Virus record (IMG/VR): IMGVR_UViG_3300031999_006178
Span: 1-42,758 of that record
Strand: one strand, 5' to 3'
Length of the DNA: 42,758 nucleotides
DNA from: a virus
The notes below the pieces were generated by a model, which ran no database searches, was not told the origin of the DNA, and saw only the letters and a list, made by a program, of their open reading frames with translations. Both the position numbers and the translations under genes were made by a program. This document shows, in pieces, positions 41 to 42,758 of the stretch; position 1 is the stretch's first letter, and each line of letters starts with the position of its first letter.

Positions 41-166
41 GGTTCTGCGCAAATGGCCGATGCTACATAAGTCTATGAATACGCGGTGGTTACGTGCGAA
101 AACGGGCAAAACTCGGTTCTGCGCTGCGCAGGCCGAAAACAGGGGTCGGTGCGTGGTTCTGCGCTG
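41..166 (+). repeat. left-end transposase-binding sites (three copies)
   Basis: GGTTCTGCGC occurs at 41-50, and GGTTCTGCGCTG at 115-126 and 155-166, all in the same orientation pointing inward. The second copy is preceded by CTC and the third by GTGCGT, exactly as the two inverted copies at the right end, so sites two and three correspond one-to-one to right-end sites. Three unevenly spaced left sites (74 and 40 bp apart) resemble the L1-L3 layout of Mu. Binding by the local transposase is inferred. Confidence 0.8.
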
Positions 167-380: not shown

Positions 381-1625
381 TCAAACGACCATCTTAGCGG
401 CGGCGGATAGGGCTGTCAACTCCTCGCGAATGGCCCGAAGGCGCGGGATCAGACTGAGGACTCTGCGGGTGGCGATCTGCATCTCCGTTCGGGAGCGGTC
501 CCTGCTCCAGGACTCGATCCGGGCATCGATGTCGCGGCGCACGGCGCCGGGCAAGCCGTCCCACCAGAGACGAAGGGTGGCGATCAGTTCAAACTTGGCA
601 TGGCGGTCGCCCTTGGCGACGCGGAGGAAGAAACCACGCCAACGGGGGTCGAGGGATTGCAACCAGGTGACCAAGGGGTGCGGGGACGAAGGGGCGGAGG
701 GACGGAGGGACGAAGCGTTGGAGGGTTCAAGCGTTGAAGACTTCAAGTTGTGGATCGCGGCGCGGGTGGCGTGGTCGTAGACGTCACGCTTGCGGGAACG
801 TGGGTCGGGAATGTCCGGCCAACGGATGGTTTGCGGCGACCGGAGTGGGACGGAGCCGGGGGCGGTTGTGCTACATTCTCGGCGGTAGTCGTTCTTGTCG
901 CAGGCGCGAAAGAGCCAGGTCTCAAAGTCGTACCGGGCCCAGCGAGCGAAAGGTTTGAACGGGAAACGCTGACGGTCGCAGGGCCAGGAGTAAAGACAGT
1001 CGATGGAGGCGAGAACGTCGGCGATCGGGAGGGACGAAGGGACGGAGGGATGGAGGGATGAGGGGCGGAGAAGAGATGCGGCGGAGTGCATCATCGGCGT
1101 GTCGATGCGATCGGCGTTGCCGATGCGGAAACACCACCAGGCGCAGATGAGAACGGCGTCGGAGGCGGTTTGAGGATCGAGGGAGAGGACGGCGGAAGGG
1201 GCGGGGGCGTAACGATCGCAGAGGCCGGCCGGACCTTCGATGTCGAGCTTGCGCGACCAGGCCTGAAGCGATCGCGGGCTGCATTTGATCGAAGCGGAGT
1301 CGGAGACCTGATTGGCGAGGCTGATACGCGAAGTCTTGGGATTCTGCTCGCACAACTCACACCAGCGGGTGACGAGAGACAAACGGGCCTCAGCCTGATT
1401 GTCGATCATCGAATGTCGAATGTCGAATGGACCGCTTCCTGACGGGCGCGGCTCTGGTGCGCGGTTGCGGTAGAGGATTACCACGCTCGTGCGGCCGCCG
1501 ACCGAATAAGGAAATTCCACGCGGCCGGTGACGCGATCGCCGTCGCGAGAGGCGAAAATACGCACACTGGCAAGCTCGATCGAGGGGCGTTCGATGGGGG
1601 TTTGAATGGCGGTCGAGAGGGTCAT
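381..1625 (-). CDS. composite protein with transposase-type HTH and repeat-encoded linkers
   Basis: 414 aa, last gene of the leftward early operon. The start codon overlaps the stop of the ASCH gene (ATGA). Residues 1-55 form a small strand-rich segment (VRIFASRDGDRVTGRVEF). A linker from repeat families G and C (EPRPSGSG, then FDIRHSMIDNQ) follows. Next comes a region whose CSPRSLQAWSRKL...GLCDRYAP resembles the ISLRSLQSWW...LEALVDRYA helix-turn-helix of the transposase. Two family-B tracts encode Ser/Pro/Arg-rich linkers (SLRPSAPSSPHP type) before the helical C-terminal segment ending SAAAKMVV. Function unknown. A regulator or accessory end-binding protein is possible. The gene looks assembled from pieces joined by repeats. 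Confidence 0.7.
   Translation of the reverse strand: MTLSTAIQTPIERPSIELASVRIFASRDGDRVTGRVEFPYSVGGRTSVVILYRNRAPEPRPSGSGPFDIRHSMIDNQAEARLSLVTRWCELCEQNPKTSRISLANQVSDSASIKCSPRSLQAWSRKLDIEGPAGLCDRYAPAPSAVLSLDPQTASDAVLICAWWCFRIGNADRIDTPMMHSAASLLRPSSLHPSVPSSLPIADVLASIDCLYSWPCDRQRFPFKPFARWARYDFETWLFRACDKNDYRRECSTTAPGSVPLRSPQTIRWPDIPDPRSRKRDVYDHATRAAIHNLKSSTLEPSNASSLRPSAPSSPHPLVTWLQSLDPRWRGFFLRVAKGDRHAKFELIATLRLWWDGLPGAVRRDIDARIESWSRDRSRTEMQIATRRVLSLIPRLRAIREELTALSAAAKMVV
676..738 (+). repeat. family B tract inside the 381-1625 gene
   Basis: Degenerate octamers of the GGGACGAA/GGGACGGA type, followed by AGGGTTCAAGCGTTGAAG. It is read on the minus strand as a Ser/Pro-rich linker without breaking the frame. 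Confidence 0.75.
1028..1070 (+). repeat. family B tract inside the 381-1625 gene
   Basis: GGGACGAA, GGGACGGA, GGGATGGA, GGGATGAG in tandem. The minus strand reads SSLHPSVPSSLP within the host frame. Confidence 0.8.
1400..1455 (+). repeat. family C plus family G repeats inside a gene
   Basis: Heptamers GAATGTC at about 1410-1430 are directly followed by the G unit CCGCTTCCTGACGGGCGCGG at 1432-1455. Both are read through in frame on the minus strand and separate the N-terminal segment from the HTH region. Confidence 0.75.
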
Positions 1626-2026
1626 GGTCCAACCTCCGCGAACGCAAGCGGGCGCGTGACTTCGACGTCATAAAGACGATGCTTGCCACGCACGGGAAAG
1701 GGAACAATCCTCCGGATGTTGTCGAGAACCCAGGCGTAGGCTCCCGGTTCCCATGCGCAACACGCCGCCAACACTTCCCGATGCGTTTGCGCCATCGGAC
1801 GACAGTCCGCAAGGTTGACCAGGGCGACGGCGTGCCCGTAGTAGACGCCGGGATACCCGCAACGGCGCAAAGTCGAGCAAATGAGCAGTTCACCGCGATA
1901 CGACGTCCGCCAGCGCCGCGTTTCGATGGTTTTCACGCCCTCGGCGATCATGTTGGCCCAGGGTTGGTGCAGGGATATCGCCTTCATCAAGACGGACGGC
2001 GTTTGAACGGCGGTCGAGGGGGTCAT
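1622..2026 (-). CDS. ASCH-domain protein
   Basis: 134 aa. MKAISLHQPWANMIAEGVK followed by TIETRRWRTSYRGELLICS is the ASCH-fold signature: the QPW near the N-terminus, K-T-I-E-R, and a Y-R-G strand. ASCH proteins bind RNA or modified nucleosides, and some bacterial members hydrolyse N4-acetylcytidine. They are common phage accessory genes. The overlapping ATG at 2026 (ATGA with the upstream stop) adds 13 residues before the canonical MKAIS start at 1987, so either start is possible. The 13-residue leader (MTPSTAVQTP) matches the leader of the next gene (MTLSTAIQTP), pointing to a duplicated start module. Substrate unknown. Confidence 0.85.
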   Translation of the reverse strand: MTPSTAVQTPSVLMKAISLHQPWANMIAEGVKTIETRRWRTSYRGELLICSTLRRCGYPGVYYGHAVALVNLADCRPMAQTHREVLAACCAWEPGAYAWVLDNIRRIVPFPVRGKHRLYDVEVTRPLAFAEVGP

Positions 2027-2649
2027 GGATCGAAGAACTCCATCTCCACGCTTCTAGGCTCGGATTCGCCGAACGTACTGCCGGGTGTGGAGTTATCATC
2101 ACGTCGGCTTTGCGGCGCGGTGCGAACCTTCGTCCCGTATTCGCGCAGCCACCTCGACGTCGCCGCGTAACTTGCCGGCCACATCCAGGCGTTTTGGACC
2201 GCCTTGGCGCACGTCATCTCGTGGCACGTCTTCATCGTGAAACGCTGCGGGGCGTGGTATAGGCCATAGAAGTAATCAATCGCCTCTTGCGATCGCCGTT
2301 CATACGCCTCTCCACCCTTCGGTTTGTTCCCCCGCCGGTCGATCAACCCTTCGACTCCGCGGATCGATCGATCATCGCCGATCGCGTAGTACCTCGCCCG
2401 CCACAATTGAAGCGTCCGAACCGAGATGGGGAAGTCGTCACTCTCCACCCCCTTGGCTTGGGCGACGATGCGCTCCGCCGCATCCGTCTCCGTCATCTCC
2501 CAAGGTTCGCCATACAACTTCTCCCACTCCTTCAGCCAGCGGCATCTCCTGTACGCCTGGTGGACCTTGCGCACCGGGTACCGGATGATTAGCGCCGGCT
2601 TCACGGGGTTTCGGCGCTCCATGTTGAAGTGCTGCGCGATCAGGGGCAT
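2023..2649 (-). CDS. stand-alone paralogue of the transposase DNA-binding domain
   Basis: 208 aa, start chosen where ATG overlaps the upstream stop (TGATG). Residues 25-173 align along their whole length with residues 34-190 of the transposase: RYPVRKVHQAYRRCRWLKEW versus FPRHDVERAYRKAYWMKEW; ISVRTLQLWRARYYAIGDD versus ISLRSLQSWWSAYNTIGDD; IRGVEGLIDR versus IRGLEALVDR; YFYGLYHAPQRFTMKTCHE versus FFYGLFRTERKLTLKLCHE. The alignment stops just before the catalytic core, so the DDE domain is absent. In Mu, repressor and transposase share the operator-binding fold, so a repressor, anti-transposase or end-binding regulator is inferred. The C-terminus (174-208) is unrelated and acidic. Confidence 0.85.
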   Translation of the reverse strand: MPLIAQHFNMERRNPVKPALIIRYPVRKVHQAYRRCRWLKEWEKLYGEPWEMTETDAAERIVAQAKGVESDDFPISVRTLQLWRARYYAIGDDRSIRGVEGLIDRRGNKPKGGEAYERRSQEAIDYFYGLYHAPQRFTMKTCHEMTCAKAVQNAWMWPASYAATSRWLREYGTKVRTAPQSRRDDNSTPGSTFGESEPRSVEMEFFDP

Positions 2650-3474: not shown

Positions 3475-4947
3475 TCACGCAACTCCCAGGCACACGTCGC
3501 AGGCGCCGCAACCATTGTCCGCTTCCTTACGGGCGCGGCTCGGATCGACCGGCGGTGGTCGATGCTCCTGGCCGAAGTATTCGACTAGGTGGGCGTGACG
3601 ACACAGGGGGAGGGCGTCGCGGTACTTGAAACCGCAGAAGGCTTCCATGTCGCTGAGGGCGATCATCTTGCCGTGGTAAGCGGGATCGTCCGCTCCCTGA
3701 CGGTCGCGGTTCTGAAATATGGAGAGCCAATGGTGATGGTCGTCGGGGGAGTAGAGCAAGACGCACTCCGCGGGTCGGCCGTCGCGGCCGGCCCGGCCGA
3801 TCTCCTGATGATAGATATCCAGCGAAGAAGGCATTCCGTGGTGGATCACGAAACGGACGTCGGGCTTGTCGATGCCCATGCCGAAAGCGATGGTGGCGAC
3901 GACGATCCGCGATCTCTGATCGCGGACCAGAGCCCCGGCGTTCACGCCGGGGGAATTCCGCCCGCCATGAATGGCGGGGCTCGGGCACGGCGCGGAATCG
4001 GGGGCAATGAACCATTCGTGGACGGCGCGGCGCTCTTCGGAGGAAAGGCCGGCGTGATAGGGGCGGGCAGACAAACCGTATGCGGAAAGCATCGCGGCGA
4101 CGCGCTCAGTTTCGGCGCGGGTGGGGCAGTAGACGATGCCGTCGACAGCCGAAGGGACAGAGGGACGAAGGGACGAAGGGATCGAGCGGATCACCTTGAC
4201 CAAGTGGGCATCGGGGTCCCGCGGGTCGCGGAAAACAACGCGGAGGGTTAGGGTGGGGCGGTCGAAGTCGCCGATGAGTTCCACCGGTTTGCGGAGCATG
4301 AGGGATTCCTTGATCTGCTCGCGCACGCGCGGGGTGGCGGTGGCGGTGAAGGCGGCGACGGGAACGTGAGGGAACATCACCCGCAATTGGCCGAGTTTGG
4401 CGTATGCGGGACGGAAGTCGGGACCCCAGATGCTGATGCAGTGGGCCTCGTCGATGACGAAGCTGCGCAGTTCGCATTGCATGAGGACGGGCAGGAAGGC
4501 GAGATCGTCGCAGCGCTCAGGTGAAACGTAGAGCAGACGCAGACGGCCGTCCTTGGCGGCGCGGACCTTCTCATCGTTTATTCGCCAATGATCGCCGCTG
4601 TGGATGCAGTCGGCGGCGATGCCCCGCGACTTGAGGGCCATGATCTGATCGTCCATGAGGGCGATGAGGGGAGAAACAACGAGGGTCAGGCCGGACTCGG
4701 CGACGGCGGGAAGCTGATAGCAAAGACTTTTGCCGCTGCCGGTGGCCATGATGACCAGAGAGTCCTCGCCGTTCAGCGAAGCCTCGATCGCCTCGCGCTG
4801 CAGGGAGCGGAACTCGATCACGCCGAAGAGGCTCGCGGCCAGATTGCCAATTGTCGATTGCCGATTGTCGATTGAACGGCGAGAGCGGCGCTGACCCGTC
4901 GCTGGCGATCCGGGATTCGATCGTTGAATGGGCAGGGTTACCGTCAT
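3475..4947 (-). CDS. RecQ-type DNA helicase with in-frame repeat insertions
   Basis: 490 aa, a 3'-5' superfamily 2 helicase. Visible motifs: FRSLQ motif 0 (46-50), Walker A ATGSGKS (68-74), DEAHC with the aromatic-rich loop ISIWGPDFRP (166-180), motif III FTATATP (200-206), motif IV IVYCPTR (271-277), motif V VVATIAFGMGIDKPDVRF (349-366), motif VI QEIGRAGRDG (381-390), and zinc cysteines C449, C480, C483, C486. The winged-helix and HRDC domains are absent. Start at 4947 is favoured by AAAGGGAG upstream, but a GTG at 4971 overlapping the lipoprotein stop (GTGA) is possible. Repeat-encoded insertions lie at about residues 25-35, 255-266, 317-345, 410-420 and 465-478, between conserved motifs. 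A role in replicative transposition or recombination is inferred. Confidence 0.9.
   Translation of the reverse strand: MTVTLPIQRSNPGSPATGQRRSRRSIDNRQSTIGNLAASLFGVIEFRSLQREAIEASLNGEDSLVIMATGSGKSLCYQLPAVAESGLTLVVSPLIALMDDQIMALKSRGIAADCIHSGDHWRINDEKVRAAKDGRLRLLYVSPERCDDLAFLPVLMQCELRSFVIDEAHCISIWGPDFRPAYAKLGQLRVMFPHVPVAAFTATATPRVREQIKESLMLRKPVELIGDFDRPTLTLRVVFRDPRDPDAHLVKVIRSIPSSLRPSVPSAVDGIVYCPTRAETERVAAMLSAYGLSARPYHAGLSSEERRAVHEWFIAPDSAPCPSPAIHGGRNSPGVNAGALVRDQRSRIVVATIAFGMGIDKPDVRFVIHHGMPSSLDIYHQEIGRAGRDGRPAECVLLYSPDDHHHWLSIFQNRDRQGADDPAYHGKMIALSDMEAFCGFKYRDALPLCRHAHLVEYFGQEHRPPPVDPSRARKEADNGCGACDVCLGVA
3519..3543 (+). repeat. family G repeat in recQ
   Basis: CCGCTTCCTTACGGGCGCGG then CTCGG, read in frame as SRARKEADNG immediately before the final zinc cysteines. 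Confidence 0.8.
3690..3714 (+). repeat. family G repeat in recQ
   Basis: CCGCTCCCTGACGGTCGCGG then TTCTG, read in frame as FQNRDRQGAD after motif VI. It matches the copies at 12261 and 14947 closely. Confidence 0.75.
3929..3985 (+). repeat. family A double-hairpin element inside recQ
   Basis: AGAGCCCCGGCGTTCACGCC, then GGGGGAATTCCG, then CCCGCCATGAATGGCGGGGC and TCGGG. It lies between helicase motifs IV and V, where normal RecQ proteins have only a few residues, and is translated in frame on the minus strand as about 27 extra residues including AIHGGRNSPGVNAGA. The preceding TGATCGCGGACC is also present before the copy at 26250. Confidence 0.9.
4151..4184 (+). repeat. family B tract inside recQ
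   Basis: GAAGGGACAGAGGGACGAAG followed by another octamer, read on the minus strand as SIPSSLRPSVPS in the linker between the two helicase lobes. Confidence 0.85.
4842..4876 (+). repeat. family C heptamers in recQ N-terminus
   Basis: GATTGCC, AATTGTC, GATTGCC, GATTGTC, GATTGAA in tandem, read on the minus strand as SIDNRQSTIGN before motif 0. Confidence 0.85.
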
Positions 4948-4967
4948 GAGATCTCCCTTTGCGAGAT

Positions 4968-6011
4968 TCACTTCTCCGTGAACGGGGCGCTGGTTGCTTT
5001 CGGTGCGGCGGAGGGCAGCTTCCGTATTTGCACCGTAAGCGCTTGCCGTATCTCAAACGTGAGCGATTTCGCCGCCTCCGCGAATCGTACCACCCCTGGA
5101 TATATGATGACCTCCGCACCCGGTCCCCACTTGTCCAACACGAGATTGAGAGGGACGCCGACTTCTTCATCGAGCCAAAAGTTGTCGCCGTGACCTGGAC
5201 CGTAGAAATACAGCTTCGGAATGGTTGGCAATCGGCTGAGGGCTTGCAAACGGGCGTCGGCGAACTTCCGCCACCGATCTTCGACCGCACCACGTCCCTG
5301 ATACCGCAGATTCACGAACCGGAACCTCGACAAGGTCTTGGCTACGACCTCGCAAACGGCGGCGTTGCGATCCTGGGTTACTTGTTGAAAGCCGAAGATG
5401 CTCGGGTTCCACCAGTATTCGACGCCCGTTGGAAGCAGTTTCAGGCCGCTCGCCAGAAGGGCAAGGTCAATGGTTTGCGTGCCGTCAACGTAAGACTTCA
5501 TGGCCTTCTCATTCTCCAACAGCACAATCGGGATATGCGCGGCGGTCATTGGTTCTCCGGCAACGATAAGCCGGACCTCGGCGGCGACGTTGCGCCATCC
5601 CTCCACGTTGTCGAATTGCGGGAGTAGGTCCATTGTTTTGAGGCCGGGGATGATTCGCATGTTGGGAACGAGGGCCTTTAACGTCGTGAAAAGACTGGCC
5701 TTTCCGGGCATCGTCGAGACGATGCCGGCGTAGGCCAGACAGCTATCCCGCCATGTTTGCAGACCGAAGACGATTTCGTCGAGCATGCACGGTGGGTAAT
5801 TGAGTTCCACCCAGGGAATGACTTTCAGGGGGAAATATCTGCACAGTCGTGCTTCCGCGCCGACTTCACCGAAGGCGGACCCGGTCACCTTTGCCTTATC
5901 TGCGACCTCGGGTTTCGTCAGCCCGGGCATGGGAGGACTCGTTGCGGCGCACCCTTCGAGGGCATATCCGGCGATGAGTCCGAACAGAAATAACAACGCG
6001 ATCCGCTTCAA
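4968..6011 (-). CDS. lipoprotein, possibly TIM-barrel hydrolase-like
   Basis: 347 aa from a TTG that overlaps the upstream stop (TTGA) and follows AAGGAAA. This start gives a clean signal peptide, LKRIALLFLFGLIAGYALEGC, with the lipid-attachment Cys at residue 22. The longer open frame upstream is rejected. The mature part has alternating predicted strands and helices (VIPWVELNYPP; IPIVLLENEKAM; VEYWWNPSIF; KLYFYGPGHGD; EVIIYPGVVRF), with acidic and aromatic residues at strand ends as in TIM-barrel glycoside hydrolases. I cannot name a family. Its place in the early operon suggests expression with early lytic genes or in the lysogen: superinfection exclusion, envelope modification or a role in lysis are all possible. 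Confidence 0.7.
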   Translation of the reverse strand: MKRIALLFLFGLIAGYALEGCAATSPPMPGLTKPEVADKAKVTGSAFGEVGAEARLCRYFPLKVIPWVELNYPPCMLDEIVFGLQTWRDSCLAYAGIVSTMPGKASLFTTLKALVPNMRIIPGLKTMDLLPQFDNVEGWRNVAAEVRLIVAGEPMTAAHIPIVLLENEKAMKSYVDGTQTIDLALLASGLKLLPTGVEYWWNPSIFGFQQVTQDRNAAVCEVVAKTLSRFRFVNLRYQGRGAVEDRWRKFADARLQALSRLPTIPKLYFYGPGHGDNFWLDEEVGVPLNLVLDKWGPGAEVIIYPGVVRFAEAAKSLTFEIRQALTVQIRKLPSAAPKATSAPFTEK

Positions 6012-7437: not shown

Positions 7438-8565
7438 TCAGGCCGTGGCGACGGCACTCCGTTGCTGGCGGATCAACTCCTGATCGGCGGCGCCGGGACG
7501 CAGAAGCGAATCGACATGGGCTAGATCGTCGGCGGCGATGGTCACGACGTCGTCTTCGGAAAGACTTTGACGCTTGCGGGCGCGACGCGCGCCGTTCATC
7601 ACCAATACCCGGCAACGTCGCAACGATCCCCAGCCGAGAAGGTTGGCTACGTCGAGCAGGTACGCGGCGGCGTCGGCGGCGAGGCGGATGGGCGGCTTCT
7701 CGTAGAGCTTGCGAATCTGCTCGATGGTGAAGTACTTCTTGCCGCCCGATTCGGCGCTGTGGCCTTGAACCACGTCGCGGATCACATCGAACCGGGAATG
7801 AATCTGCCCCGCGTCGGGTTGGGCGGTGCGCTCCACGCGATCGCGGAGGTCTTTGGTGGCCAAGAGGAGAATCGGGCATCCCGTGTCGTCGTGAATCTCA
7901 CGGAGGACCTCGATGGCGTCGTCGTTGAGCTTGTGGGCTTCGTCGATAAAGAGGAGCCGGTTACTACCGCGGAGTTCATCGAGGATACGCTCGAACTGCG
8001 TGATGCGGTTGGCGCTGCTGCTGACCGGCTTGCGAAAGCCAAGCTCGCGGGCGATCAGGCGGATTAGGCCGGTCGGGGCATAGGCCCCATGCTTGACGGT
8101 GACGAAGATAGCGCCCGGAGTGTTGGCTTTGAAAGCCATAGCGCAACGTGTCTTGCCGATGCCGCTCGGGCCGACGGCAAGTCCCATCGTGCCGTTTTCC
8201 AGCACCAACTGGGCGATGGCCCGGATCTGGGTCGCGGTCCTGATGTCGACGAAGTCGCCGTCGAGTTTGGCGGCCTCGCGGCGGGCGTGTTGCTCGACCC
8301 AGGCGTTGAGAACACGTATCTGCTGGTCGGCGTTCTCACGGAACTTGTAGATGACCAACTCGCGGATCGTCGATCCGCGGGGAGTTCCGACCTCGCGTCC
8401 GACGTCGGAAAAGTTGATGTCCCGGCGCTTGCAGTAGGCGGCGAAGTTGGCCATCGCCTGCTTGCGCTCGGCGTCGGTGAGAGATCCTTCGTTCGGCAGC
8501 GTCCATGCAGCCATTAGCGTATCCTGGTCCGTCAGGAAACCCTGGAGTTCCTGATTGTCGGTCAT
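7438..8565 (-). CDS. MuB-like AAA+ transposition target activator
   Basis: 375 aa. An N-terminal helix-turn-helix (DINFSDVGREVGTPRGSTIR, about 49-68) is followed by an AAA+ domain: Walker A GPSGIGKT (132-139), Walker B LLFIDEAH (204-211), sensor I LLLATKD (233-239) and a possible arginine finger SRFD (257-260). This is the layout of MuB and other ATPases that bind target DNA, activate the transposase and confer target immunity. The start overlaps the transposase stop (ATGA), as expected for the A-B pair. Confidence 0.9.
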   Translation of the reverse strand: MTDNQELQGFLTDQDTLMAAWTLPNEGSLTDAERKQAMANFAAYCKRRDINFSDVGREVGTPRGSTIRELVIYKFRENADQQIRVLNAWVEQHARREAAKLDGDFVDIRTATQIRAIAQLVLENGTMGLAVGPSGIGKTRCAMAFKANTPGAIFVTVKHGAYAPTGLIRLIARELGFRKPVSSSANRITQFERILDELRGSNRLLFIDEAHKLNDDAIEVLREIHDDTGCPILLLATKDLRDRVERTAQPDAGQIHSRFDVIRDVVQGHSAESGGKKYFTIEQIRKLYEKPPIRLAADAAAYLLDVANLLGWGSLRRCRVLVMNGARRARKRQSLSEDDVVTIAADDLAHVDSLLRPGAADQELIRQQRSAVATA

Positions 8566-10595
8566 GGAAAGTCGTCAATCTCCGAAGACTCACCGTCGCC
8601 TTGCGGCGACGGCTCCGAGAGTAGATCGTCGCAATCCCAATCGGCCTCCGGCGGGCGCACTTCTCCGGAGAGAAGTTCGCTGAGATCGCCGGGCACGAGG
8701 TCGCGCATAGAGGCCGATTCAACCCACGTTTGAGGGGGGATCGACTGGCCCTCGAAGCCGCATCGAACGGGGGCGATGTTGGGGCGGGCGTTGTCGGTCC
8801 CGGTGGCGCGAAGAGTTGCCGCTTGCTCGCGGCGATCGCGGTCGAGAACGGCGGATACATCGAGCGTGCGGCGGGCGGACTTCTTGGCGTAGTCCACCAT
8901 CTCCTTGCGATTGCGATTCACCGCGGCGCTGGCCTCACGGAGGTCATCGCTCTTGTCCAGGGGATGAATGCGTTTGTTGGGGTCCAGAACGCAAATCTGC
9001 CGGTGATTGCCGGTTTCGTAAGCGACGCAACGCGCCGGATATTCGGGATCCACGGACACCAGTACCTTGCGCCCGATCCAGGGGCGGAGGCCGGCGGTGC
9101 GGGCCCCGTATCCGAGGTGTTTGCCGCAGACGGTGAGGTGCACCCCGTTGGGACCGACCTTGTACTCGCCGCGAATGGAAATCAGACAATCCAGTTCGCC
9201 TTCGACGGCCTTGCGAAGGCGCGGCGCGGCATTCCATGCAGCGAGCGGCGAGCGGCCGTTCATGCCTTCGCCACGATGCGCGGCGGCATGGTAGATGGTC
9301 AGGTAATCGCCTATCGCGGCGGCGGCGCCCTCAAGAGTCGGAACGGCGCTGCCGTCGACCAGGGCAAGAGGATCGACGCCGCGACCGGTATATCCGTCGC
9401 GGATCAGTTGCAGGCTCTCCGGGCGAGCCGATGGAGTGTGGCCGCAATAAGTATTGAAGAGCTTGCCGCACTGATCCTCGAAAGTGCGGAAGAAACGTTC
9501 CAGAGTGCCCTTGCTCCAGGGCGAGTAGCGCTTGGCCAGGATCAGTTCAACCCCCAGTTCGGGCACGATTCCTCGCCAGCGGGGATCGTCGCAGACCACG
9601 TGATCGCGGCTCCTGCGGACGATGGCTTTCCATTGCGGGCCGTAGTCGCGGCGCAGGGCGCGAGCCTCCATCTTGGTCAGACCGGTGAGGGCCTTGGCGG
9701 TGAAGTCCTTGCCGTTGTCGACGCGCATAACTTCAGGAATGGCCTCGCGGAATGCCATCCGTAGAGCGACCAGGATCGCTTCCTGGTGAGGAGCCGGGCC
9801 TAGATGCCAGCCCGCGATGCGCCGCGAACCGCAGTCTTGAATGGCGGTTAGCCACGGACGAATCTGGTGATCCTTGTAACGAACCCAGAAATCGACCTGA
9901 TGGTGATCGCAGACGTAGAAGCGGCCTGGATCGACGGCGTCCCAATCCTGCTCGCTGTAGGGCATGTATTTCTTGGAGTGGAGCGTCTTGCCGTTCCGGC
10001 AGAGGAAAGTCAGAGGGATGTCGTCACAATCGCGCAGCCAGCGAGCGGTCGCGGACACGCTGGGCGGCCAGGACCATCCTTCGCGGCGGGATTCACGCTG
10101 GGTGATCTCGTGGCAGAGTTTGAGGGTGAGTTTTCGCTCGGTTCGGAAAAGACCGTAAAAGAAGTTGATGGCGGCGGCGGAGCGGGAGGATTCACCGCCG
10201 GGGGCTGCGGTGCCACAGGCATAGCGATCGACCAGAGCCTCCAAGCCGCGAATCCGGCCGTCGTCGCCGATCGTGTTGTAGGCGGACCACCAGGACTGAA
10301 GGGAACGGAGGCTGATGAGGAAGTCGGCCCCTTCGTGCTGCTTGGCCTCGGCGACGACGACGCGAGCGATATCGCGGGCGGTGCGACATGGCGGCGCTTC
10401 GCTTGGCCATGCCACCCGCGGGGTAGCGCAGCGCGAACGCCACTCCTTCATCCAATACGCCTTGCGGTAGGCGCGTTCGACGTCATGCCGCGGAAATCGG
10501 GACTGAAGATTCTCGCGGGCGGCCTGCTGGCAGGCGTCACGGTCGGGATTGCCGATCGCCGATTGTCGAATGTCGAATGAGACTAGAGCCGTCAT
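8562..10595 (-). CDS. MuA-like DDE transposase
   Basis: 677 aa. The ATG at 10595 follows the zinc-ribbon gene stop by two bases, and the longer open frame is rejected. Residues 1-20 are partly encoded by family-C heptamers. Residues 34-190 form the sequence-specific DNA-binding region, shared with the protein at 2023-2649. The retroviral-integrase-like core has D230 (VCDHHQVDFWV), D293 (RVDNGKDF) and E366 (SKGTLERFF), so the DDE triad is intact. The rest (PWIGRKVLVSVDPEYPARCV, about 540-560) matches the beta-barrel domain after the core. It cuts and joins phage ends during lysogenisation and replicative transposition. The likely sites are the GGTTCTGCGCTG copies at both ends. Confidence 0.95.
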   Translation of the reverse strand: MTALVSFDIRQSAIGNPDRDACQQAARENLQSRFPRHDVERAYRKAYWMKEWRSRCATPRVAWPSEAPPCRTARDIARVVVAEAKQHEGADFLISLRSLQSWWSAYNTIGDDGRIRGLEALVDRYACGTAAPGGESSRSAAAINFFYGLFRTERKLTLKLCHEITQRESRREGWSWPPSVSATARWLRDCDDIPLTFLCRNGKTLHSKKYMPYSEQDWDAVDPGRFYVCDHHQVDFWVRYKDHQIRPWLTAIQDCGSRRIAGWHLGPAPHQEAILVALRMAFREAIPEVMRVDNGKDFTAKALTGLTKMEARALRRDYGPQWKAIVRRSRDHVVCDDPRWRGIVPELGVELILAKRYSPWSKGTLERFFRTFEDQCGKLFNTYCGHTPSARPESLQLIRDGYTGRGVDPLALVDGSAVPTLEGAAAAIGDYLTIYHAAAHRGEGMNGRSPLAAWNAAPRLRKAVEGELDCLISIRGEYKVGPNGVHLTVCGKHLGYGARTAGLRPWIGRKVLVSVDPEYPARCVAYETGNHRQICVLDPNKRIHPLDKSDDLREASAAVNRNRKEMVDYAKKSARRTLDVSAVLDRDRREQAATLRATGTDNARPNIAPVRCGFEGQSIPPQTWVESASMRDLVPGDLSELLSGEVRPPEADWDCDDLLSEPSPQGDGESSEIDDFP
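10546..10580 (+). repeat. family C heptamers in transposase N-terminus
   Basis: GATTGCC, GATCGCC, GATTGTC, GAATGTC, GAATGAG in tandem. The minus strand encodes SFDIRQSAIGN at the start of the transposase. Confidence 0.85.
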
Positions 10596-10597
10596 CT

Positions 10598-10840
10598 CTA
10601 CGCCACCCGCGCATCCGCCAAACGTTGCAGGAACTTTCCCAAGGCGACCGGCTCGGTCGCGGCCCGGTAATCGAGGGCGAAGACGGAGCCGTCGTCGTAG
10701 AAAGAGGCCTCGTAGCCGACGCCGCAAAACTCGCAGTATACGAACTTGTCCACGCGATCGGGCCCGCGGGCCTCGGCGAAGTCCTCGCGGGGGATCATGC
10801 CGCCGCAGCGGGGGCATTCCTGGTAATCAACATGCAGCAT
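10598..10840 (-). CDS. small zinc-ribbon protein
   Basis: 80 aa. Two CxxC knuckles, ECPRCGG (9-13) and YCEFCG (35-39), with an acidic C-terminal half. The start overlaps the end of the upstream gene by 14 bases in another frame. It lies directly before the transposase. Zinc binding is read from the cysteines and function is unknown. Confidence 0.7.
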   Translation of the reverse strand: MLHVDYQECPRCGGMIPREDFAEARGPDRVDKFVYCEFCGVGYEASFYDDGSVFALDYRAATEPVALGKFLQRLADARVA

Positions 10841-11135
10841 CGGGAACCTCCACGGTCGATTGCCGATTGGCGGCGGCGCACCAGGGGCACAGTTTGGTCA
10901 GTTCCCCCGCCAGGACGGCGCGGTCCTGGGGAGCGCAAAGTACATCGCGCATTTCACGGCGGGCGCAGGCGCAGCGGACGTTCACGGCCAGATGCTCGTA
11001 AGCCTCCGCGAAGTTGATCGCCAGCCAACCGAGGGCGAAGGCCGCGAGGCCCCAGAGGATGTCCGTCACAGGGACATAGGGACAGAGGGACGAAGGGACG
11101 GAGGGAAAAACAGAAACGCAGAAAGCAGAAATCAC
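10827..11135 (-). CDS. small membrane protein with repeat-encoded N-terminus
   Basis: 102 aa from a GTG overlapping the upstream stop (GTGA). Family-B octamers encode SVFPSVPSSLCPYVPV at residues of about 9-23. One transmembrane helix follows (DILWGLAAFALGWLAINF), then a Cys-containing C-terminus (CACARREMRDVLCAP, LCPWCAA) that could bind zinc. Function unknown. Confidence 0.55.
   Translation of the reverse strand: MISAFCVSVFPSVPSSLCPYVPVTDILWGLAAFALGWLAINFAEAYEHLAVNVRCACARREMRDVLCAPQDRAVLAGELTKLCPWCAAANRQSTVEVPDAAC
11068..11106 (+). repeat. family B tract inside a gene
   Basis: CAGGGACATAGGGACAGAGG followed by GACGAAGGGACGGAGGGA, translated in frame on the minus strand before the transmembrane helix. 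Confidence 0.85.
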
Positions 11136-11653
11136 GGGTTCACCGCCTTGCGCTCCACGGCGCGGTTGAAGGTGTTGACGATGGCGTGGTGCAGGTTGGC
11201 GTCGCGCTTCCGATGGACGTGGAAGGCGTCGTCGTACTCGTGCACGGTCTTGGCGTCGAAGTCGTCGATGCGCCCGTCGGCCAGGATCTGGGCCACGGCC
11301 TTCATCTGGTCGTGGTAGGCGATCTCGGCCTCGATGGCGTCGCGGAAAAACGCGGGGGCGGAGGCGGGGCAGTTGCAACGAATGTCGCTGATCTCGAAGT
11401 CGAACTCCTCGGGTATGAGCAGGGCGACGATGCGGCGATCGCAGAAGTGCTCCAGGATGGATCGCCAGAATTCCACGGGGATGTTGCGCGTTCCGTTGCG
11501 GTATTCGCTGATGGTCTGCTCGGCCTTGCCCGTCCAGACCACGAGTTGTTTGACCACGAAGCAGGTGACCTGGCCGTCCACCCGATCGCGGACCAATGCG
11601 GCGTCGTTGAGCAAGGCGCTTAATAGTTCAGCGTCGCGGCGCACGTCGTTCAC
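11132..11653 (-). CDS. HTH-like phage regulator (CII/Ner-type role possible)
   Basis: 173 aa. The GTG at 11653 is preceded by AAGGAGG, the best ribosome site in the early operon. The centre (KQLVVWTGKAEQTISEYRNG, then TRNIPVEFWRSILEHF) has the helix-turn-helix and following helix of XRE-like phage regulators, with LLIPEEF after it. A Cys pair (IRCNC) lies near residue 98. The C-terminal half is helical (AIEAEIAYHDQMKAVAQILA). As the first well-supported gene of the early operon it is a candidate early regulator. The family is not certain. Confidence 0.65.
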   Translation of the reverse strand: MNDVRRDAELLSALLNDAALVRDRVDGQVTCFVVKQLVVWTGKAEQTISEYRNGTRNIPVEFWRSILEHFCDRRIVALLIPEEFDFEISDIRCNCPASAPAFFRDAIEAEIAYHDQMKAVAQILADGRIDDFDAKTVHEYDDAFHVHRKRDANLHHAIVNTFNRAVERKAVNP

Positions 11654-11888
11654 GAAGAGGCCTCCTTGCCTGGGACGAAGGGACACTGGGACGTAGGGAC
11701 GAAGGCACTGAGGGACAAAGGGACGAAGGAACGACCGGAGAAACGGGTTGTGAAATCCCTTGGGGAACGGGGTTCGCCGGAGTACCATTCAAGGAAAGGA
11801 CGCTGAATAGAGCATCGCCGAAGCGGGTGCAGACGCACACGCCGGGGTCGGCGTCGAGGAGTCGTTCGGTTGAGCGGTTCGTCGTCAT
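11628..11888 (-). CDS. doubtful first ORF of the early operon
   Basis: 86 aa open frame. Residues 1-50 (TNRSTERLLDADPGVCVCTR, then FGDALFSVLSLNG) look plausible, but the C-terminal 35 residues are encoded by family-B octamers (VPSSLCPSVPSSLRPSVPSS). It overlaps the next gene's start. No family recognised. It may be a short leader peptide or not expressed. Confidence 0.3.
   Translation of the reverse strand: MTTNRSTERLLDADPGVCVCTRFGDALFSVLSLNGTPANPVPQGISQPVSPVVPSSLCPSVPSSLRPSVPSSQARRPLRERRAPRR
11671..11733 (+). repeat. family B tract upstream of the early regulator
   Basis: Seven or so degenerate octamers (GGGACGAA, GGGACACT, GGGACGTA, GGGACGAA, and so on) between the doubtful ORF body and the GTG start at 11653. 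Confidence 0.85.
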
Positions 11889-12564: not shown

Positions 12565-13077
12565 ATGAACATCGAACCGGAGTGGCCTCTGCCAGCGACG
12601 ATCGTGATCCCCGGCGCCGTTTACGGGCGGTGCATGGAGTATTTCCTAGATGAGCTATTTTCGGAGGACCGACACCAACAAATCGTCGAAGGGCAGGCGG
12701 AATTCGCGGTGCTGAGCGATCACGAAGACGAGCAAGTTCGGCGCGCGTTGGGCGGCGCCATATCAGTTCCGTTCTGGCGGCGTCGAGAGCACGCTGCACG
12801 CGACTGGGATCTGGCCTTGGCCCGCCTCGCGGCGAGGAAAGTGATGGGTCTCGCGCAGTTTGGAGGAGGGCTACGGCAAGTGCGCGTAGATCCGCGATCC
12901 GCGGAATCGTGGTGCGGAGGGCTTCCGCGGCGAGCGAAAGGAAGCGATCCGCAGGGTGAATCGATCTGCCTTTGCCTCGTCGAGACGTACGAGTACTGCT
13001 GCTGGCTGGCCGAGGGCGGACACCCGGACCTTGGCCGATGGATCGCGCGAGCGGTCGAACAGGGCCTTTGGTCCTAG
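12565..13077 (+). CDS. unknown protein bracketed by direct repeats (candidate moron)
   Basis: 170 aa, on the strand opposite to its small neighbours, with a normal acidic composition (EYFLDELFSEDRHQQIVEGQ). A C-terminal SICLCLVETYEYCCWLAEGG followed by HPDLGRWIARAVEQGLW may form a small hydrophobic domain. TACAAT just upstream (about 12552-12557) could serve as a -10 element, which would allow independent expression from the prophage. The fully open antisense frame is Arg/Ser/Pro-rich and judged a shadow. No family recognised. Confidence 0.6.
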   Translation: MNIEPEWPLPATIVIPGAVYGRCMEYFLDELFSEDRHQQIVEGQAEFAVLSDHEDEQVRRALGGAISVPFWRRREHAARDWDLALARLAARKVMGLAQFGGGLRQVRVDPRSAESWCGGLPRRAKGSDPQGESICLCLVETYEYCCWLAEGGHPDLGRWIARAVEQGLWS

Positions 13078-42603: not shown

Positions 42604-42635
42604 CAGCGCAGAACCACGCACTTCAGCGCAGAACC
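42604..42635 (-). repeat. right-end transposase-binding sites (two copies)
   Basis: CAGCGCAGAACC at 42604-42615 and 42624-42635, inverted relative to the left end. Read inward on the minus strand they are CTCGGTTCTGCGCTG and then GTGCGTGGTTCTGCGCTG, matching left sites two and three including flanking bases, but spaced by 20 rather than 40. Confidence 0.82.
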
Positions 42636-42648
42636 GAGGCGCTCCTTA

Positions 42649-42758
42649 GATCCGTGCTGTGCTGTGGCCGATACCGACGACGACGGAGACGTGGACCTGC
42701 GCGACGCAGCCGCGTTTCAGCGGGTGTTTGTGAAATCTGAAGACTGCCCGTGTGTGGA
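42649..42758 (+). pseudogene. host gene fragment with dockerin-like motif, interrupted by the prophage
   Basis: One frame reads DPCCAVADTDDDGDVDLRDA then AAFQRVFVKSEDCPCV and runs off the window. The D-x-D-D-D-G-D-V-D-L-R-D calcium-binding loop followed by A-A-F-Q-R is the form found at the ends of many planctomycete secreted proteins. No start codon is present, so the gene seems to be cut by the insertion. Confidence 0.75.

Follow-up and report, generated by a model that had tools for sequence, protein, structure and literature searches.

A free-standing copy of the end-binding module of a Mu-type transposase, without the catalytic core, is encoded as a gene of its own in the early operon of the phage recorded in IMG/VR as IMGVR_UViG_3300031999_006178 (42,758 bases, called the window throughout). 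This 208-aa protein, named P0001, was analyzed together with the transposase of the same phage and other transposable-phage records, among them G001, G005, and G010, and we tentatively propose that it acts as a brake on transposition.

Homology of P0001 to the transposase

In agreement with the original prediction of a second, free-standing transposase DNA-binding domain, BLASTP aligned P0001 to the transposase with 43% identity (69 of 162 amino acids identical; E = 6e-36). Residues 20 to 170 of P0001 corresponded to residues 104 to 263 of the longest transposase open reading frame. Because this longer frame overlaps the zinc-ribbon gene, the transposase start was set at 10595, and numbered from this likelier start, the aligned span was residues 30 to 189, stopping about 40 residues ahead of the first catalytic Asp, which bears out the predicted alignment (residues 34 to 190, ending at the DDE core). 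An independent six-frame search of the whole record located the domain in exactly two places, P0001 and the transposase. Moreover, the Mu-type transposase profile PHROG_310 matched P0001 with an E value of 1.5e-14 (profile positions 105 to 246 of 696), and the I-gamma profile PF09039 gave a subthreshold score (13.6 of 20.5 bits).

The start of P0001 lies in the linker ahead of I-beta, about 10 residues short of where the homology sets in, and the protein ends before the DDE core; thus, both of its borders are domain borders. Beyond residue 170 of its 208 residues the homology stops, no match to DDE, rve, or Mu-transpos_C was found in P0001, and NCBIfam and PADLOC returned no match to it. With neither a DDE core nor domain III, P0001 is not a full Mu-type transposase.

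The AlphaFold2 model of P0001, built with four sequences, comprised two helical DNA-binding domains, with pLDDT values of about 77 to 92 over residues 21 to 90 and 121 to 170 and of 54 to 68 in the linker region (91 to 120). Structural comparison, proposed as a check in the original prediction, supported the relationship: the best match was MuA in the transpososome (4fcy; Z = 8.1, MuA residues 90 to 237), the MuA I-beta (2ezk) and I-gamma (2ezh) structures matched with Z scores of 7.7 and 6.5, and nearly all of the top matches were Mu/TnsB end-binding domains. In the model, P0001 has the folds of both subdomains, I-beta and I-gamma.

Phage genome and early operon

The window is a Mu-like phage (Mu/B3-like) with an inverted early operon, a layout reported for B3-like phages (PMC5977238). 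The minus-strand early genes span about 11.8 kb down to 0.4 kb and include those for a 218-aa HTH regulator, a zinc ribbon, transposase A, the B ATPase, a RecQ helicase, P0001, an ASCH protein, and a 414-aa protein, while the structural genes lie on the plus strand and are read rightward, and both phage ends lie inside the window (Table 1).

Table 1. Features of the window, with the evidence for each
Feature	Position	Strand	Basis
L1, left-end site, GGTTCTGCGC	41..50	+	motif search
L2, left-end site	115..124	+	motif search
L3, left-end site	155..164	+	motif search
414-aa protein, I-beta-like domain about residues 63-140, conserved in G005	381..1625	-	profile and structure matches
ASCH-domain protein, 134 aa	1622..2026	-	Pfam PF04266, E = 2.3e-9
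P0001, free-standing I-beta-gamma (Mu end-binding) protein, 208 aa	2023..2649	-	homology, predicted fold, coupled start/stop
85-aa protein, translationally coupled to P0001	2649..2906	-	ORF call, overlap
RecQ-family helicase, early operon	3475..4971	-	TIGR00614, E = 2e-117; ortholog in G005
AAA ATPase, MuB-like DNA transposition protein	7438..8565	-	PHROG_296, E = 6e-39
Transposase A, 677 aa	8562..10595	-	DDE residues present when aligned with G005
I-beta-gamma end-binding domain within transposase, P0001 homologue	10029..10508	-	BLASTP and six-frame search
HTH regulator, 218 aa, head of early operon	11132..11788	-	conserved in G001 and G005
R2, right-end site	42606..42615	-	motif search
R1, right-end site	42626..42635	-	20-nt spacing to R2, as in G001

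The transposase is without the N-terminal winged-helix-like domain (about 60 aa) carried by the G001 and G005 transposases, and a short, repeat-derived-looking stretch takes its place (10508 to 10600, minus strand). RecQ helicase genes are found in the early transposition operons of two related Mu-like phages (the window and L019, 2581 to 3903), adjoining the 427-aa gene in G005; the PADLOC call of the window gene as DpdF was rejected, being due to its helicase domains. At about 3917 to 3990, the window RecQ gene carries an in-frame insertion of a palindromic repeat, which adds 28 residues just before RIVVATIAFGMGIDKPDVR. This insert is absent from the G005 RecQ, and the same element family, which recalls palindromic elements known to be maintained within genes, occurs about nine times in the window. 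In addition, minisatellite-like GGGACGAAGGGACGAA repeats are read in frame as 'PSSLRPSVPSS' inserts, both in the 414-aa protein and in RecQ, and these are missing from both G005 orthologs. A small conserved protein (window 12565 to 13077, plus strand; L003 7875 to 8378) is weakly similar to VMAP-C and effector-associated domain 2 (E = 0.003 and 0.028, both under the cutoffs). G001 encodes a Cro/CI-type HTH_3 repressor (L003 5814 to 6647), and no counterpart over the cutoff was found in the window or G005. The right flank (42651 to 42758) reads as host DNA, with a dockerin-like stretch, ADTDDDGDVDLRDAAAFQRVF, that suggests a planctomycete (Planctomycetota) host.

P0001 as an intact gene

P0001 is preceded by GGAGG upstream of its start and overlaps the upstream gene at TGATG and the downstream ASCH gene at ATGA. 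Its base composition by codon position is like that of other genes (GC3 of 0.775 versus 0.48 at position 2). Selection was gauged against the transposases, as no close homolog was found for a direct measure: the differences were 0.42, 0.34, and 0.63 at codon positions 1, 2, and 3, with dN of about 0.53 and dS above 1.5 (saturated), the same as between the transposases of different phages, and in a neutral simulation to the P0001-transposase distance, 1.4% of the copies stayed stop free. P0001 is an intact gene coupled within the early operon, and these comparisons indicate purifying selection, with constraint equal to that on the transposases. The original prediction had named a decaying fragment absent from relatives as evidence against a functional protein; the gene is indeed absent from G005, but it is intact, coupled, and constrained rather than decaying. 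No promoter of its own was found on the minus strand between 1500 and 5200, which is weak evidence, as planctomycete promoters may differ.

Relatives and origin of P0001

P0001 shares 48% identity with the G005 transposase and 43% with both the G001 transposase and that of its own phage, and the domain tree of P0001 and the transposases is an unresolved star. Because of this identity pattern and the star tree, a recent duplication of the resident transposase is unsupported, and the duplication within the phage lineage that had originally been envisaged did not hold up; an old duplication and acquisition from another transposable phage appear equally possible. In G005, whose left arm is complete, the 427-aa gene overlaps its direct neighbor RecQ, with P0001 and the ASCH gene missing between them; therefore, P0001 either belongs to an insertion specific to its lineage or has disappeared from G005. 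The G001 contig is without a left arm.

PHROG_310 and PF09039, which would fail to detect paralogs as distant as the 414-aa family, were searched against 25 transposable-phage records, and a second I-beta-gamma copy occurred only in this phage. Second PHROG_310 matches in Mu and Vibrio phage martha covered profile positions 4 to 96 and 5 to 74, which is the I-alpha part, and G010 was rejected as a carrier of a second copy, its transposase being broken into pieces instead. No further P0001 homolog was found in viral contigs by short-peptide patterns (from P0001, the transposase, A1, A4, the terminase, and the 414 family), in the records matched by two DNA-motif scans of viral contigs and then searched with the domain profile, or in genome contigs scanned with A4 and a host-like repeat. 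Likewise, tblastn detected no homolog of P0001 in phages or plasmids and none of the 427-aa protein in phages. Pattern scans depend on short conserved peptides and are not very sensitive, which makes this absence weak evidence. P0001 is known from one metagenomic genome.

The neighboring 414-aa protein family

The 414-aa protein appears to derive from the transposase domain as well; it is I-beta-like in character and more widely conserved than P0001. It shares 34% identity with its G005 ortholog of 427 aa (E = 5e-76), and the I-beta-like domain of the 414/427 family was detected by profile-profile comparison (E = 2.9e-8), the family profile in turn finding the G005 transposase domain (E = 5.5e-10). 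The scores exceeded those of 10,000 shuffles in both directions (18.5 versus 11.3 bits and 31.7 versus 9.9 bits), with the signal coming mainly from the G005 members, as the 414-aa protein of the window alone failed to beat shuffles against the transposase profile. The AlphaFold2 model was poor (mean pLDDT of 39), and in its usable part, residues 63 to 139, it matched MuA I-beta and TnsB with Z scores of 7 to 7.8, above unrelated rows. The likeness is established for I-beta, and any I-gamma part is putative at most. The family shows that derivatives of the transposase domain are able to persist.

End sites

The site quoted in the original prediction, GGTTCTGCGC, proved to be present in five copies in the window (0.26 expected), all at the ends and none elsewhere. 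The end layout is common to the window, G001, and G005: G001 starts with GGTTTTGCACTG twice, 20 nt apart, which equals the R1-R2 spacing of the window, and the G005 sites are GGTTCTGC at 43 and GGTTTTGCAC at 114. The sites themselves vary among the relatives (GGTTCTGCGC, GGTTYTGC, and GGTTTTGCAC). A candidate autoregulatory site at 2663, by the P0001 start, was rejected as within chance, being one of six internal two-mismatch matches against about 5.2 expected. No shared 5- to 6-mer indicating a target-site duplication was found at the inferred ends. With sites at the ends only, there is no internal cluster that would argue against P0001 acting there.

Proposed role of P0001 and alternatives

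Our preferred reading, held with a confidence just short of even, is that P0001 is a noncatalytic end-binding competitor that limits transposition. P0001 would bind the L and R sites, and the bound protein could neither cut nor recruit MuB, because it has no DDE core, domain III, or enhancer-binding domain. Sharing a transcript with A and B, it would build up over the course of transposition, compete with the transposase for L1 to L3 and R1 and R2, and, by occupying the ends, damp or end replicative transposition, much as InsA does in IS1 and the KP repressor does in P elements. The limitation of the homology to I-beta-gamma, the fold match, the constraint, the coupling, and the end-only sites are consistent with such a brake. 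On the other side, the site preference of P0001 may differ from that of the resident transposase, since P0001 is no closer to it than to those of other phages, and isolated I-beta-gamma may bind a single site weakly. Moreover, P0001 occurs in one genome and is absent from the G005 left arm.

Location in the early operon is equally compatible with a helper role, the best supported of the rivals although unlikely in our estimate, in which P0001 serves as a noncatalytic subunit at accessory sites (L2, L3, and R2) or bridges the ends, so that fewer transposase molecules are needed; marking and shielding of the left end for packaging is a variant covered by the same estimate. Coexpression with A and B near the left end agrees with this role, a subunit bound at L2, L3, or R2 need not be catalytic at the terminus, and the retention of the sister 414-aa I-beta family at the same place in G005 suggests a lasting role for noncatalytic end-binders. 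However, absence from G005 means that such phages do not require P0001, which is also without the parts contacting other subunits in the core, and the literature searched held no helper of this kind for transposable phages. Somewhat less probable is protection against relatives, with P0001 originating from another phage's transposase, occupying the ends of a superinfecting relative, and blocking its transposition. The closest sequence is indeed the G005 transposase (48%, against 43% for its own), the tree does not group P0001 with the resident transposase, the end sites differ among relatives, and P0001 and the ASCH gene form an accessory insertion between two conserved genes. Nevertheless, the identity differences are small and the tree is unresolved, the recognition regions resemble those of all three transposases to about the same degree, and P0001 lies in the lytic early operon rather than in an obvious lysogen-expressed module.

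Transcriptional repression at operators in the manner of Mu repressor c, the least likely of these three rivals, is improbable: the window has no HTH_3 repressor over the cutoff, whereas G001 has one, and the Mu repressor too has a DNA-binding part in common with the transposase, but the domain in P0001 is the end-binding half and not the I-alpha half, no internal site rises above chance, and the operon is headed by the 218-aa HTH regulator, which the window, G001, and G005 have in common. We give even less credence to a nonfunctional leftover of a duplicated or imported transposase gene; occurrence in a single genome and absence from G005 would suit it, but the intact frame with a ribosome-binding site and coupled start and stop, the GC3 value, the constraint equal to that of the transposases, and the clean domain borders on both sides argue otherwise. 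In addition to the brake itself, a broader and doubtful proposal is that the early operon holds noncatalytic end-binders (the 414/427-aa family and, here, P0001) that compete with or complement the transposase, with P0001, whose origin is uncertain and may lie in another phage, conferring end-specific immunity against related transposable phages.

Comparison with known systems

MuA recognizes the phage ends specifically through I-beta and I-gamma and the enhancer through I-alpha (PMC3362531). P0001 is like MuA I-beta-gamma (I-gamma being PF09039) in sequence (via PHROG_310), predicted fold, and domain order and differs from MuA as a separate protein without I-alpha, the DDE core, and domain III. 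The I-alpha part of MuA is shared with the Mu repressor. Like repressor c of Mu and D108, P0001 is a phage protein with a DNA-binding part shared with the transposase. The parallel drawn in the original prediction calls for correction, however, as the halves differ: Mu repressor c shares I-alpha (enhancer/operator) with MuA, whereas P0001 shares I-beta-gamma (ends) and has no I-alpha. P0001 is accordingly outside the Mu repressor c family, matching PHROG_310 at 104 to 246 only, as against the I-alpha positions of the second matches in Mu and martha. Mu repressor c has been reported to bind the Mu ends also (PMC3820752).

InsA of IS1 represses transposition, competing with InsAB' for both end repeats (PMC12428005), and defective P transposases that retain the DNA-binding domain occupy binding sites (PMC12393704). 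Like InsA, P0001 is the DNA-binding part of a transposase made on its own, without the catalytic part; InsA, however, is what the transposase gene yields when no frameshift occurs, and it acts on its own promoter as a repressor too, whereas P0001 is a separate gene, 6 kb from the transposase gene and of a different transposase family. P-element KP, a transposase cut down to a form with the DNA-binding domain, blocks binding sites, as proposed for P0001, but it derives from internally deleted element copies, whereas P0001, expressed neither from the transposase gene itself nor from a deleted copy, is a gene in a complete phage operon. The sharing of the enhancer-binding half between transposase and repressor in Mu shaped ideas of the link between lysogeny and transposition, and a free end-binding half offers a natural test of whether transposition control acts at the ends or at the promoter. 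If inhibitory, P0001 would be a natural dominant-negative for a Mu-type (distantly TnsB/CAST-type) transposase.
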